Source of the DNA: an uncultured bacterium
GTDB taxonomy: Bacteria > Patescibacteriota > Saccharimonadia > Saccharimonadales > Saccharimonadaceae
Direction: 5' to 3'
DNA length: 64,000 bases
Assembly: GCA_903899655.1 (NCBI GenBank)
Contig: CAIUKF010000009.1
Coordinates: 1 to 64,000, forward strand
A program made the position numbers and the translations under genes. Shown here piece after piece: positions 3,480 to 27,056 of the stretch (positions are counted from its first letter, which is position 1; the number at the start of each line of letters is the position of its first letter). The notes under the pieces are model-generated. The model was not told the origin of the DNA and did no database searches. It saw only the letters and a program-made list of their open reading frames with translations.

Positions 3480-6267
3480 CGCCGACAATAACCCACAATA
3501 CCAGGGCGATTACCACTAAAGCTAACACTATTGATAAGATTCCCGAGTTGTCACCGCTACTCATGATATTACTTTTGACAATTGGCTGTAGTGCTATAGG
3601 CTCATTTGCTTTAATGTAATCACCTTTCACTGACACGTTACCGTCCAGTTGTAATGAATCATTAATAATGTTACTAGCGTTATTAATATTTTCATTATCA
3701 TTTTGAATGAAATCCTTGTTTATATCTAGATTTAAATGACTCTGTATATGCTGACTGAGTACCGCTTGGTTACTATTCACTATTCCAAGCATTTTATGCA
3801 AACTATCTAATGTCTCACTAATTAATACGTCTTTTTCTAAACTAATATTTACACCTGATTGATCGTCCAACGGGATATATGGCTTTCTTACTTCAATCAC
3901 CTGGTACAAATCAACCTCTTCCCCCGAATATGATGTTCCGAACAGATGTACCGTGTGATAACCTTCTTCCAAGTCATGTGGCAAAATTACGTCAACATCA
4001 AGCGATCCATCGCTATTCGTAATAAAATGACCTAAGGAAATTCTATTCGAATGAATCTCAATAACAGCTGATGATAATGGCTGCAGCATCCTGGCATTAA
4101 GCTTTACACTTGCTATCAAATTACTGCCTAAATTATCCAAAATCGATACAAAGTTAGAAACAATCTGTTTAGGATAATTATGGTAGTTATTTTGTAACCA
4201 ATACGTTGATGGTTCTGGGGCTACAACAGACTGGTCGGGGCAAACTACTACACCATTACTACAGTACTCATAATCCATAATATTCCCCACTGAACCTAAA
4301 ATTGAACTGGCATCTAACTGATGCCCAAGTGAATTCGGATGAAAACTTTCATTTCCAATAAACCTAAACGATTGCGAATTATTCAACATATTGCTATCAT
4401 CACCTAGCGCAATTGAATTCATAGACCTAACTACAGATGGTTGAGCGCTACCACACAGCGCAAAATCTCCAAAACTATCCTGAATGTCCACGTATTTAAT
4501 ACCCGCTGCTTTAGCGGCAGCAGCTATGACTTCATTTAGATAAACAATGCCTTCGTTCATAAATTCTCTCTCAGTTTTATCAAGCAAATTCCCTATTAGC
4601 CAACTACAATTACCATCTGGAACAATTATTTTCGGATAGCCTATCGCATATATCTTTGAGCTTGGCGAAGATATATGAATTTGTTGGTATGTGTTAACTA
4701 AAGTACTAAATAAATCCTTGATCTCAGTTGCCATTTTTTCTTTACCTTCAGTAGTGCCTGCCGCATCACAGGTGCCTAGACCAATACATGATTTTAAGAT
4801 ATCCATAAATCCAGCATCATTACCACCAATCCCTATTGTTATTACTTTCGGCTTATATTTACTAACAAAAGTATCCTGATGAATACGACCCTGTATAAAA
4901 TCCGTGGAAGCTATGCCCTTGGATAATGCAGCATCTACTAGACTTAGGCTCATATTGTCTTTTCCTAAACGCTTTCCCTGTCCTAAGTATTCGGAATCAT
5001 TACCAACTACATCAACAGTCATCGCTCCTGAACAAGCCACACTCCTCATATAAGTTGGATCTATATGTGACCACTGCGCAATAATAAATGGGTATGACCG
5101 CGTGCTGACATGACACTTCTCGTACTCATCATTCGTTCCAGTTATGTAATACGAGTCGTCCGTTTCACCTTCGCCACTCGTAAATGAGTCGCCCATTGCT
5201 AAATAATCTATCCTTTGCCCGCCATACCCAGCAGCCCTAAGAGATATTTGCTTCATATTACCCAGATATGACATAGCAAAAAAGCTTAATTCTCCCCCCT
5301 CACTATTAAACCTTGGGTGTGCCGCATAACTGAATCGATTCATAAAAGTTTCGGTATTTATCTTGGCCTCTTTGCATGGTCTATATACCGGCGACATTGC
5401 CGACATGTTTTCTTCGGTTGCCACATCTCCACAATCTGAATTGACATTGAATATTCTTAAATCAGTATTATAGCCAGCAAATGCAATATTTTTTCCGTCA
5501 TCACTAACAGAAATGTCGAAAGTTGGGTCCATTCCACCTCCAAAATAATAAATAGCCATCGATACCCTCTTCATCTCAAGCGTTTTTACGTTCAATAACC
5601 CTATCCCGCGCCCATGAAATTCAACTGCCAACCAGTCACCATTGTCAGACGATCCGAAACCGCCAATCGGCCAAGCGTAATTATTCGGACCATAAAGACT
5701 TGTTATGCTTTTAAAGACATAGTCTGGGCTTGATGCATCAAAAATATATTCCAATTGCGCAAATTCGTGCGCATCTGCCACAGGTTTTAATCGGCCACTA
5801 AAATTCCTGTAAACAACCAAAGACCTAGACGGGCTATCTGTTAAATATTCTTTCACTGCCAGTGAATCGGTACTTGGTAGATACAGGCAACTGTCATACA
5901 ACGGGCAAATTCCTCTAACTTTATACATTTTTGAGTCATATTTAAACCCAACTGCAGCACTATAAGCATTGCCGTTACCGACATAATAAGTTCCAAACCT
6001 CACATCACTACTTGCCGCCATACAAAGTCGTTTAAAACCCGGCTCGCTCATGACTTCCAAGGTTTGATAATTACCTTCACACAACCCGACTGGCACATAA
6101 CTCGATTCGATGACCGAATCAACAACAGGTTCAGCGTTTATCCACGACCAATTATACGATGTACTGTCAGCACTAACCAAATGCGGCGACACTATTACAA
6201 TCACCGACGATGCCAGATTGACTACCACCAAAATCATTACGCAAAACTTAGAAAATTTAGTACCCAC
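3463..6267 (-). CDS. Large secreted SGNH/GDSL hydrolase with N-terminal beta-propeller-like region
   Basis: 934 aa with an N-terminal signal peptide (residues 1-33) and a C-terminal membrane helix (about 908-932), so probably anchored outside the cell. Residues about 60-340 carry repeats of the D...D.G..IAF type seen in propeller proteins. Residues about 350-655 are an SGNH hydrolase: block I GDSFTSGEGE, block III GIGGNDAGF and block V SFHPNSLGH, giving the Ser, Gly/Asn and His of the family. An Ig-like segment follows. The start is GTG 6267, with AAGGA about 11 bases upstream. Likely an esterase, lipase or deacetylase acting on envelope or host material; the substrate is unknown. Confidence 0.85.
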   Translation of the reverse strand: MGTKFSKFCVMILVVVNLASSVIVIVSPHLVSADSTSYNWSWINAEPVVDSVIESSYVPVGLCEGNYQTLEVMSEPGFKRLCMAASSDVRFGTYYVGNGNAYSAAVGFKYDSKMYKVRGICPLYDSCLYLPSTDSLAVKEYLTDSPSRSLVVYRNFSGRLKPVADAHEFAQLEYIFDASSPDYVFKSITSLYGPNNYAWPIGGFGSSDNGDWLAVEFHGRGIGLLNVKTLEMKRVSMAIYYFGGGMDPTFDISVSDDGKNIAFAGYNTDLRIFNVNSDCGDVATEENMSAMSPVYRPCKEAKINTETFMNRFSYAAHPRFNSEGGELSFFAMSYLGNMKQISLRAAGYGGQRIDYLAMGDSFTSGEGETDDSYYITGTNDEYEKCHVSTRSYPFIIAQWSHIDPTYMRSVACSGAMTVDVVGNDSEYLGQGKRLGKDNMSLSLVDAALSKGIASTDFIQGRIHQDTFVSKYKPKVITIGIGGNDAGFMDILKSCIGLGTCDAAGTTEGKEKMATEIKDLFSTLVNTYQQIHISSPSSKIYAIGYPKIIVPDGNCSWLIGNLLDKTEREFMNEGIVYLNEVIAAAAKAAGIKYVDIQDSFGDFALCGSAQPSVVRSMNSIALGDDSNMLNNSQSFRFIGNESFHPNSLGHQLDASSILGSVGNIMDYEYCSNGVVVCPDQSVVAPEPSTYWLQNNYHNYPKQIVSNFVSILDNLGSNLIASVKLNARMLQPLSSAVIEIHSNRISLGHFITNSDGSLDVDVILPHDLEEGYHTVHLFGTSYSGEEVDLYQVIEVRKPYIPLDDQSGVNISLEKDVLISETLDSLHKMLGIVNSNQAVLSQHIQSHLNLDINKDFIQNDNENINNASNIINDSLQLDGNVSVKGDYIKANEPIALQPIVKSNIMSSGDNSGILSIVLALVVIALVLWVIVGVITRV

Positions 6268-22966: not shown

Positions 22967-24151
22967 TTATTTTATAAACGTTTCGTAAACATGTTCGACG
23001 TCTTTATCACCACGGCCAGATAAATTAACCACTACAATGTCAGTCTTTTTGTATTTTTTGGCTTCGCGTTTGATATAGGCGACCGCATGAGCTGATTCTA
23101 ACGCAGGAATTATGCCCTCAATCCTAGACAGATAAACAAATGCATCAACCGCTTCAGCGTCAGTCGCTTCACTTAGCGTCAATCGTCCAGATTCTTTCAA
23201 CATGCTCAGTTCTGGACCAACACCAGGATAATCCAAGCCCGATGCAGCACTGTAAGACTCTTTAATTTCACCCTTATCATCAACCAAGGTTAACGTTTTG
23301 TAGCCATGAATGACCGTTGGCTTACCAGCGGCCAGTGACAAGCCGTGTCGTCCCGACAACAATCCGCGACCAGCCGGTTCAACCGCCACTAACTCAACAT
23401 TTTTTTCAGGTATAAAGTCGTACATGGCGCCAATCGCATTACTGCCACCACCGACACAAGCCACAATCGAAGTCGGCAAGCGTCCTTCCATCTTCATGAT
23501 TTGTTGACGAATTTCCTGCCCGACAATTTTTTGAAAATCTCGCACCATCGTTGGATAGGGGTGAGGACCAACTGCCGATCCCAATAAATAATGCGTCGTT
23601 GCGTAATCAGCCACAAAAGCCGTAAGTGCGGCGTCAACGGCATCCTTTAACGTCCCTTGGCCTTGAGTTACAGGTATAACCTTGGCCCCCAAAATTTTCA
23701 TTCTGTACACATTTGGTTTTTGAGCGTCGATATCGCGTGCCCCCATATAAATATCACATTCCATACCTAAATAAGCGGCAATGGTAGCTGTTGCTACACC
23801 GTGTTGGCCAGCGCCAGTCTCAGCAATTAATTTAGTTTTGCCCATTTTTTTCGCCAGTAGACCTTGGCCAATAACGTTATTAATTTTATGCGCACCAGTG
23901 TGGTTTAAATCTTCACGCTTTAAATATATTTTTGGACCCTTTAAATCTGCTGTCATATTTTCAGCAAAATAAAGCGTGCTGGGACGGTTAGCGTACACCT
24001 GGTACAGGTGTTTTAACTGTTTTTGAAAGTCTTTATCAGTCTTTGATTTTTCGTATTCAGTTGCTAAATCTGCTAGTACTTTTTCGAGTGCTGGTGGCAA
24101 AAATACGCCGCCAAAGTCACCGAAAAAACCATTTTCAGTGGTTGTTTTCAT
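22967..24151 (-). CDS. trpB: Tryptophan synthase beta chain
   Basis: TrpB condenses indole with L-serine to tryptophan using PLP. The 394-aa sequence has the PLP lysine in HTGAHKINN (K89), AETGAGQHG, the GGGSNAIG phosphate loop and the C-terminal SGRGDKD. No trpA or other trp gene is in the window, so it may use external indole (inference). The start ATG has AAAGGA upstream. Immediately before this is the hairpin at 24168-24183 and, further up, a leader ORF with tandem Trp codons, indicating regulation by tryptophan supply. Confidence 0.97.
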   Translation of the reverse strand: MKTTTENGFFGDFGGVFLPPALEKVLADLATEYEKSKTDKDFQKQLKHLYQVYANRPSTLYFAENMTADLKGPKIYLKREDLNHTGAHKINNVIGQGLLAKKMGKTKLIAETGAGQHGVATATIAAYLGMECDIYMGARDIDAQKPNVYRMKILGAKVIPVTQGQGTLKDAVDAALTAFVADYATTHYLLGSAVGPHPYPTMVRDFQKIVGQEIRQQIMKMEGRLPTSIVACVGGGSNAIGAMYDFIPEKNVELVAVEPAGRGLLSGRHGLSLAAGKPTVIHGYKTLTLVDDKGEIKESYSAASGLDYPGVGPELSMLKESGRLTLSEATDAEAVDAFVYLSRIEGIIPALESAHAVAYIKREAKKYKKTDIVVVNLSGRGDKDVEHVYETFIK

Positions 24152-24167
24152 ATTGTAAGTTTCCTTT

Positions 24168-24183
24168 CGCTAGATAGCGAATA
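24168..24183 (-). promoter_or_regulatory. Hairpin next to the trpB ribosome binding site
   Basis: On the minus strand TTCGCT and AGCGAA form a hairpin with loop ATCT, and the 3' arm runs into the AAAGGA of trpB. It lies between the leader peptide stop and the trpB start and could mask the SD. Confidence 0.45.
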
Positions 24184-24197
24184 AGTTATAAGTTTAT

Positions 24198-24317
24198 TTA
24201 ATTTAAATCAAAAATAGTGGTGAAAATATTAATTTGGGGCTGCCCCCACCAACGTGCAACAACAGCAAACACAGATATTGAAACCTGCGCCATGTTGATA
24301 CCGTTTATTTTCTGCAT
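24198..24317 (-). CDS. trpB leader peptide with tandem Trp codons
   Basis: A 39-codon ORF on the trpB strand, ending 46 bases before trpB. Residues 21-27 read ARWWGQP, so two TGG codons are adjacent, as in classical trp attenuator peptides. A GC-rich hairpin (TTGG..GG / CCCCAA) overlaps the Trp codons. TATAAT (minus strand, 24325-24330) ends 7 bases before its ATG, so the peptide itself would be translated from a leaderless mRNA. The role in attenuation is inferred from position and Trp codons. The DNA for it is otherwise the unexplained trpB leader. Confidence 0.7.
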   Translation of the reverse strand: MQKINGINMAQVSISVFAVVARWWGQPQINIFTTIFDLN

Positions 24318-24433
24318 GGTTAAGATTATATATTAATATTTTGTTCAAGGGAAGCACAAATTAAAACACCTTTGCGTTGGTTATCACACAAAGGTGTTTG
24401 TCTAAAGTGCAATTTGATAAGCGAAAAGTCTAT

Positions 24434-25993: not shown

Positions 25994-26081
25994 TGGCGGA
26001 GGGGGGGAGATTCGAACTCCCGAAGCCTTTCGGCTTGGCGGTTTTCAAGACCGCTGGAATAAACCACTATCCGACCCCTCC
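25994..26081 (-). tRNA. tRNA-Ser(TGA)
   Basis: Minus strand: acceptor GGAGGGG with a C-rich 3' strand, anticodon stem GCGGT/ACCGC and loop CTTGAAA, giving anticodon TGA for UCA. There is a class II variable arm (AAGCCGAAAGGCTT), T arm GGGAGTTCGAATCTCCC, discriminator G and an encoded CCA. Its first 15 bases also encode the last codons of the upstream endonuclease ORF. Confidence 0.95.
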
Positions 26082-27056
26082 AAAACTAATAAACCTACGC
26101 CTGTGTTTAGGGTTACTACTACCAACTATCATAAAGTATTTCTGTATTTCTGTAAATCGTTCAACTGATACAGACCTATTAACCCTTATCTTTGACGCGA
26201 TATCTAGGCAATTTAATACTGAATGAACATCACCCAGCAAAACAGGCGACGCGCTTACGAAAGACATCCTGCAATACGAATATTTCTTCGCTTTTACACT
26301 ATGAACCTCTTGAAATACAGACCCATCGGTATCAAATAACCCTCTCAAACAGGCTTTTGAATACGATTCATTTTTCTTTATCCACTCAGGTATACATAGT
26401 CCGTTTCTCAACTTATTACCCAAAGGAAGACCCTTGCTAACTAGAAACGTGACGAGATTAATCGACGACACTTCTATGACAATGCAGTTACTTTTGATAC
26501 GTCGTCGAGTATGAGGCATTATACCAAAAAGCGAATAAATCAGGGCTACGACATAGTCGGCATATTCTACGTCAGTTGTATTATCTAAAGTTATCGAAAT
26601 CTGATATAGTCCGACACTACCATCTCCTATCATTAAGCCCATGAATTCCGCCAATTCATAACTTTCAGTAGGCTCGATTACATGATTTCTTGCAAAAATA
26701 TCATTTTCGACACCTTTTCTTTTATTGTAAGAGGCAACTCCACCAGATATTCTACTTTGTTTTGTTCCAGGCGTACCGTATCTTGAAATATACATTCTAC
26801 CACCGACACCGCCAGCAGCTTTATTGTGCCACCACGTCGGTAACGTCTCGATTTCAAGGCTATTCTTATCTATTACCGCGAGTCTAATTAATACATCTAT
26901 GCTGTCCTGAGGAATAGTAAACTTGCCCCTACGCCAGTCACGTAACGTTCGTGAATTAATATTCAGAATATTCGCTAATTGATCAATAGAATATCCAAGA
27001 TTTTTTAGGGCACAAAATAAAATATCTAAGCTGTCTTGTGACAATTTACATCGCAC
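26067..27056 (-). CDS. Free-standing LAGLIDADG homing endonuclease with N-terminal HTH
   Basis: 329 aa. Residues 8-50 look like a helix-turn-helix (LGYSIDQLANILNINSRTLR). Two LAGLIDADG motifs follow: LAEFMGLMIGDGS (about 135-147) and CLRGLFDTDGS (about 236-246), each with its catalytic Asp. Such proteins are double-strand DNA nucleases that spread their own gene. The last sense codons and the TAG stop lie within the 5' end of tRNA-Ser(TGA), so the two share a transcript or an insertion boundary. The start is GTG 27056, with TATAAT ending 6 bases upstream. No host intron or intein is visible. Confidence 0.88.
   Translation of the reverse strand: MRCKLSQDSLDILFCALKNLGYSIDQLANILNINSRTLRDWRRGKFTIPQDSIDVLIRLAVIDKNSLEIETLPTWWHNKAAGGVGGRMYISRYGTPGTKQSRISGGVASYNKRKGVENDIFARNHVIEPTESYELAEFMGLMIGDGSVGLYQISITLDNTTDVEYADYVVALIYSLFGIMPHTRRRIKSNCIVIEVSSINLVTFLVSKGLPLGNKLRNGLCIPEWIKKNESYSKACLRGLFDTDGSVFQEVHSVKAKKYSYCRMSFVSASPVLLGDVHSVLNCLDIASKIRVNRSVSVERFTEIQKYFMIVGSSNPKHRRRFISFGGVG

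Follow-up and report, generated by a model that had tools for sequence, protein, structure and literature searches.

Ribosome-mediated attenuators of enterobacteria, Corynebacterium and Streptomyces place a short leader open reading frame (ORF) with tandem Trp codons before a trp gene, with a hairpin over those codons, and an attenuator has been predicted before trpB2A in C. diphtheriae (PMC1262725). In Sinorhizobium meliloti, the message of trpL (rnTrpL/peTrpL) begins at the leader ATG. Its terminator is intrinsic, and the target is trpE(G) (PMC7298713). Candidate leader peptides have also been described for cys operons of Mycobacterium, with no terminator seen (PMC1262725).

The window, a 64,000-nucleotide stretch of an uncultured Saccharimonadaceae genome (hereafter G000), carries a leader ORF with two adjacent Trp codons (WW) and a hairpin over them, as in the first group. 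Unlike that group, it has no antiterminator or terminator, precedes a lone trpB instead of a trp operon and has a leaderless layout. The last feature is shared with S. meliloti trpL, so that a leaderless Trp leader is not new, whereas the terminator and the target differ. The mycobacterial cys leaders likewise have no visible terminator, but differ in amino acid and phylum. The conservation of the ORF and of its WW codons, together with WW leaders and attenuators before trpB elsewhere in the phylum, makes a predicted Trp-responsive leader before trpB well supported at the level of sequence. We consider it probable that the ORF encodes a leader peptide tying expression of the lone trpB to charged tRNA-Trp, as a terminator-less derivative of an attenuator whose output would come after initiation. 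Such a leader would vary on a known mechanism and has apparently not been described in this phylum before: a limited literature search found no report of leader-peptide attenuation in Patescibacteria.

A lone trpB behind a Trp-Trp leader ORF

The trpB product scores 579 bits against its NCBIfam model (cut-off 392; Table 1). No trpA, indole-glycerol-phosphate synthase (IGPS) or TrpR gene was found in the genome (0.92 Mb, 97% complete), which bears out an earlier reading made from the sequence alone, in which trpB was called isolated. TrpB without trpA and IGPS is limited by the chemistry of the pathway to indole salvage, and the enzyme is therefore restricted to that role here. Among the 28 genomes of the genus compared with the window's own, intact trpB occurs only in G023 (99% identical), G024 (92%) and G006, which has a different trpB (53%); G007 has a trpB piece at a contig end. 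In G001 (L005/L010), a 3′ trpB remnant adjoins a tRNA-like sequence, with the MFS gene still downstream. By this remnant, trpB is undergoing loss within the genus.

Table 1 Features of the trpB locus in the window and WW leaders before trpB in other Patescibacteria
Feature	Position	Strand	Remark
trpB, tryptophan synthase beta chain, TrpB1 type, lone	22967..24151	(-)	NCBIfam TIGR00263
trpB Shine-Dalgarno (SD) AAAGGAA	24161..24167	(-)	AGGAAA kept in G023 and G024
Hairpin TTCGCT-ATCT-AGCGAA abutting the trpB SD	24166..24181	(-)	This genome only
Leader peptide ORF MQKINGINMAQVSISVFAVVARWWGQPQINIFTTIFDLN, 39 codons	24198..24317	(-)	Frame kept in G023 and G024
Hairpin B TGGGGGCAGCCCCA (TGGGG-GCAG-CCCCA)	24235..24248	(-)	Begins at second Trp codon; 5 pairs
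Tandem Trp codons TGGTGG (codons 23-24)	24246..24251	(-)	Common to G023, G024, G883 and G240
Hairpin A, inside leader ORF (codons 6-21)	24256..24301	(-)	14 pairs common with G024
-10 hexamer TATAAT	24325..24330	(-)	7 nt 5′ of leader ATG
G552 (L136), WW leader MINYKICIVKFNISWWTRSHW			Then U-run terminator; before trpB
G738 (L138), WW leader MQISFNWWTTSLWR			Then U-run terminator; trpS-like gene next downstream of trpB
G808 (L139), WW leader MQIIKYNIIFWWTAQNHRVV			Then U-run terminator; before trpB
G822 (L137), WW leader MRHLISNSSIWWTAQKLWVD			Then U-run terminator; stems not computed
G888 (L141), WW leader MKMISCYQHWWTTSLWR			Then U-run terminator; trpS-like gene next downstream of trpB

The 39-codon ORF with its adjacent TGG codons and the TATAAT ending just ahead of its ATG are as the sequence-only reading described them, and 46 nt separate the leader stop from trpB. 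Among 127 upstream ATG ORFs of 8–60 codons in the window, WW micro-ORFs precede two genes only, one being trpB, the sole Trp gene; with its retention in relatives, this lifts the ORF above chance. It is extremely improbable that the frame is open by chance or that it is a piece of some other gene, an HtrA-type protease for instance. One WWGQPQ match does lie in an HtrA-type gene of G007, in the same genus, but the motif is absent from the HtrA relatives of the genus, a reversed control pattern gives more chance matches than this one unexplained match, and the leader is conserved in G024 and G883 and stands before trpB in several genomes. An HtrA origin of WWGQPQ was rejected, the match being taken as chance. 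Rfam covariance models run over the window returned tRNA matches only, with no Trp leader or T-box at the gathering score.

In the window, long ORFs often have a -10 box 6–9 nt ahead of their ATG: the 5–10 nt bin holds 13, where positions farther away predict 4.2. Other genes carry an SD, and trpB has one like those of internal genes. The same TATAAT–ATG layout occurs at G240 and at the first leader of G883. Leaderless messages for first genes look usual in the lineage, and a normal layout would place a gene with an SD behind a leaderless first cistron, which supports the ORF as a predicted translated first cistron. The leaderless promoter that had been assigned to the ORF is thus supported in its layout and is nothing special, being usual in the lineage. 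A strong 14-pair terminator-like hairpin (24364-24399, (-)) lies 3′ of the upstream gene (24718-24434) and separates that gene from the leader promoter.

Conservation in close relatives

The sequence-only reading had proposed looking for loss of the WW codons or of the frame in relatives, and this comparison found the frame and WWGQPQ retained in G023 and G024. In G024 the ORF aligns without indels across 33 codons (MQKISGIKITEVVVALFSFVAIWWGQPQLNSLT), with the -10 box and its spacing retained; TATAATTTTAACTATG stands at the window's -10 position, and the sequence farther upstream is unrelated to the window's. In G023 a contig end cuts the leader, and the retained 3′ part of the ORF includes WWGQPQINIFTTIFD. 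Between the two full-length leaders of the close clade, 1 of the 18 nt of WWGQPQ is changed, compared with 29 of the 81 nt that make up the remainder of the ORF (Fisher p 0.011). Further leader copies sought in the family gave weak matches only, which are unrelated reading frames; in viral contigs, a trpB scan gave one unlinked match and a motif scan 88.

The N-terminal half of the leader evolves freely, 15 of the 33 codons being nonsynonymous. By contrast, WWGQP is written in G000, G024 and G883 with the rare codons GGG (~11%) and CCC (~10%), despite trpB synonymous codons that have diverged among these genomes (39% to 57% same codon). Such retention of WWGQP and its hairpin speaks against a relic, that is, a former attenuator without a terminator that supplies a promoter and a translated upstream cistron and regulates nothing, as do the compensatory changes that preserve the pairs of hairpin A (below). 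The absent terminator half and the free evolution of the N-terminal half would both suit such a relic, which we regard as unlikely.

The conserved residues could instead matter as such, and the codons not, if the product either functioned as a small hydrophobic protein or arrested the ribosome as a nascent chain. GQP is conserved after WW, with Gln kept via a synonymous change, and a hydrophobic stretch precedes WW in both close genomes. The hairpin and its loop, however, explain GGG-CAR-CCC equally well, nothing outside WWGQP is conserved in G883, and the length varies (39, 33 and 31 aa), so that we hold this explanation to be quite improbable. A leader read through its Trp codons remains the reading we favour.

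RNA structure around the leader

The GC-rich hairpin that the first reading placed over the TGG codons is present (hairpin B) and is kept in relatives as TGGGG-GCAR-CCCCA, with a GCAA loop in G024 and G883. The parts of the leader conserved across G000, G024 and G883 are two Trp codons and this short hairpin, with GCAA as its loop in two of the three lineages.

Hairpin A shows two compensatory changes, three one-sided changes and no broken pairs between G000 and G024, and in both the leader region is more stably folded than codon-matched controls (at most 1 in 1000 and ~1 in 100, respectively). It is confined to these two genomes in our comparison: it was not seen in G240 or G883, whose leaders fold no better than such controls, and was rejected as a general feature. 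For full predicted folds, pair retention compared with permuted substitutions was not significant (0.08-0.13). The second hairpin reported to touch the trpB SD exists in the window, but neither G023 nor G024 has it.

No 3:4 intrinsic terminator with a U-run is found in the window, as had been remarked from the letters, and no conserved alternative stem lies between the WW codons and trpB that could form a mutually exclusive 2:3 antiterminator. The folding check suggested at the outset, for mutually exclusive hairpins, likewise yields none between leader and trpB, whether in the window or in the close relatives. Antiterminator and terminator having been tested for and found absent, the window leader is not a classical transcription attenuator; the proposal of a trp-attenuation-like leader holds for the Trp-Trp leader of a lone trpB and fails for the classical 2:3 and 3:4 parts. 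Transcription could still be attenuated by an unusual terminator, either hairpin B itself, directly kept from forming by a ribosome at the Trp codons, or a Rho- or pause-dependent stop. Hairpin B begins at the second TGG like the 1:2 stem of classical relatives, and a U-rich stretch follows the corresponding hairpin of G240, yet in G000, G024 and G883 the stem has only five pairs, and the sequence after it is rich in A and has no U-run; such a terminator has perhaps an outside chance.

Translational attenuation through a hidden SD would need a conserved structure over the trpB SD that opens when the leader ribosome stalls. In a simulated stall, the energy predicted for opening the trpB start goes from 9.7 to 6.8 kcal/mol in G024 and stays at 11.4 kcal/mol (11.4 before, 11.4 after) in G000. 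Three candidate pairings were rejected. The loop of hairpin A could pair with the SD over 8 bp in G024 and over only 5-6 bp in G000, which is chance level there. The segment before WW pairs with the trpB start no better than shuffled sequence in four of four genomes, although an 8-nt match in G883 is striking by eye. Pairing of the WW codons with CCACCA inside trpB occurs in the genus only, where the sequence encodes Leu-Pro-Pro with the commonest Pro codon, and was taken as chance.

Trp leaders elsewhere in Patescibacteria

A search of 380 genomes sampled from the phylum gave seven further trpB genes with E below 1e-133. WW leaders precede six of the seven; the seventh, in G595, is without a WW leader and has a trpA-like gene downstream. 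The attenuators of G552, G738, G808, G822, G888 and G883 share with the window the gene, the phylum and the WW leader, have a first hairpin at or near the second TGG and are often leaderless. Unlike the window, they have 2:3 and 3:4 stems and a U-run (for G822, the U-run). Stems 1:2, 2:3 and 3:4 that share strands were found in G552, G738, G808 and G888; those of G738 are GGACTACC:GGTAGTTC (1:2), TTTGGCGGT:ACCGCCAAA (2:3) and ACCGCC:GGCGGT (3:4). The occurrence of textbook trp attenuators ahead of trpB in several Patescibacteria may merit as much interest as the window leader. Several of the classical-attenuator leaders have TATACT or TAATAT 6-8 nt before the ATG and are themselves leaderless.

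In G883 (L135), from another Patescibacteria family (trpB 73%), two Trp leaders stand in series 260 nt upstream of trpB. The first (MKSLQNHYKTSSWWCL), with TATAAT 6 nt before its ATG, belongs to a complete classical trp attenuator including the 2:3 stem. The second ORF (MKHNIFFLIRYHFIWWGQPLKLNLLSNQLLI; MKHNIFFLIRYHFIWWGQPLKLN...), between this attenuator and trpB, has the same TGGTGGGGGCAACCCC as the window, and the peptide outside WWGQP is not conserved with the window's. G240, from the window's family and with another trpB lineage, has TATAAT 6 nt before the ATG of a WW leader (MITARKSQQFAVRRAISLVWWA), with the hairpin GGGC-ATA-GCCC on the WW codons and the U-rich stretch after it. An inverted repeat, TGTCATTGCGA ... 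TCGCAATGACA, lies between this WW leader and trpB (L114).

In the trpB tree, the window clade groups with G883, L022 and L023, and G552 lies outside, next to this group. A trpS-like gene follows trpB in L022. In L023, a record labelled Anaerolineae (Chloroflexota), a T-box (RF00230, 95 bits; 4503-4845, (+)) directly precedes trpB; its specifier would read UGG, from the triplet after GAA. The T-box probably acts via tRNA-Trp, by direct tRNA binding and with no leader peptide, unlike the window. Close trpB relatives are therefore preceded by a classical attenuator, by an attenuator and a WWGQP leader, by a WWGQP leader alone or by a T-box. That a single input, Trp supply, is answered in such different ways would be the strongest indirect sign that the window leader senses Trp.

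Predicted mechanism and meaning

In the mechanism that we propose for the leader, a ribosome would load at the 5′ end of the leaderless message and arrive at the tandem Trp codons. Under Trp scarcity it would stall there and melt hairpin B, and trpB output would be raised after transcription initiation; when Trp is plentiful, it would continue to the leader stop and hairpin B would reform. The device probably originated as a classical trp attenuator, of the kind seen upstream of trpB in related Patescibacteria, that lost its terminator half. With that half gone, the output would most likely be trpB translation or message stability, not intrinsic termination. We infer this preference for translational over transcriptional control from the missing terminator; leader translation, stalling, the Trp response and derepression on Trp starvation are likewise predictions from the arrangement of the locus. 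More tentatively, and with some doubt on our part, the leader may be a reduced kind of Trp sensor that is peculiar to Patescibacteria and does without a terminator. Leaderless and consisting of WW and a short hairpin, it would control translation of an indole-salvaging lone trpB and would have arisen via a tandem stage like that of G883.

Ultra-small bacteria that depend on hosts are believed to have lost most regulation. Patescibacteria nevertheless keep predicted Trp-sensing leaders, including complete classical attenuators, on the single remaining Trp gene, and one lineage appears to have simplified the Trp-sensing device. The leader offers a testable sign that the cells adjust indole-to-Trp salvage to supply.

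Two further observations concern other genes. A marginal tRNA-Sec match (25998-26081, (-); 48.3 against 47 bits) in the window overlaps the end of a LAGLIDADG-domain gene (26067-27056, (-)). In G132 (L118, 9631-11121, (-)), a 496-aa ORF resembles an in-frame fusion of a TrpR-like domain to TrpB, whereas in G347 (L115) TrpR-like and TrpB are adjacent genes.
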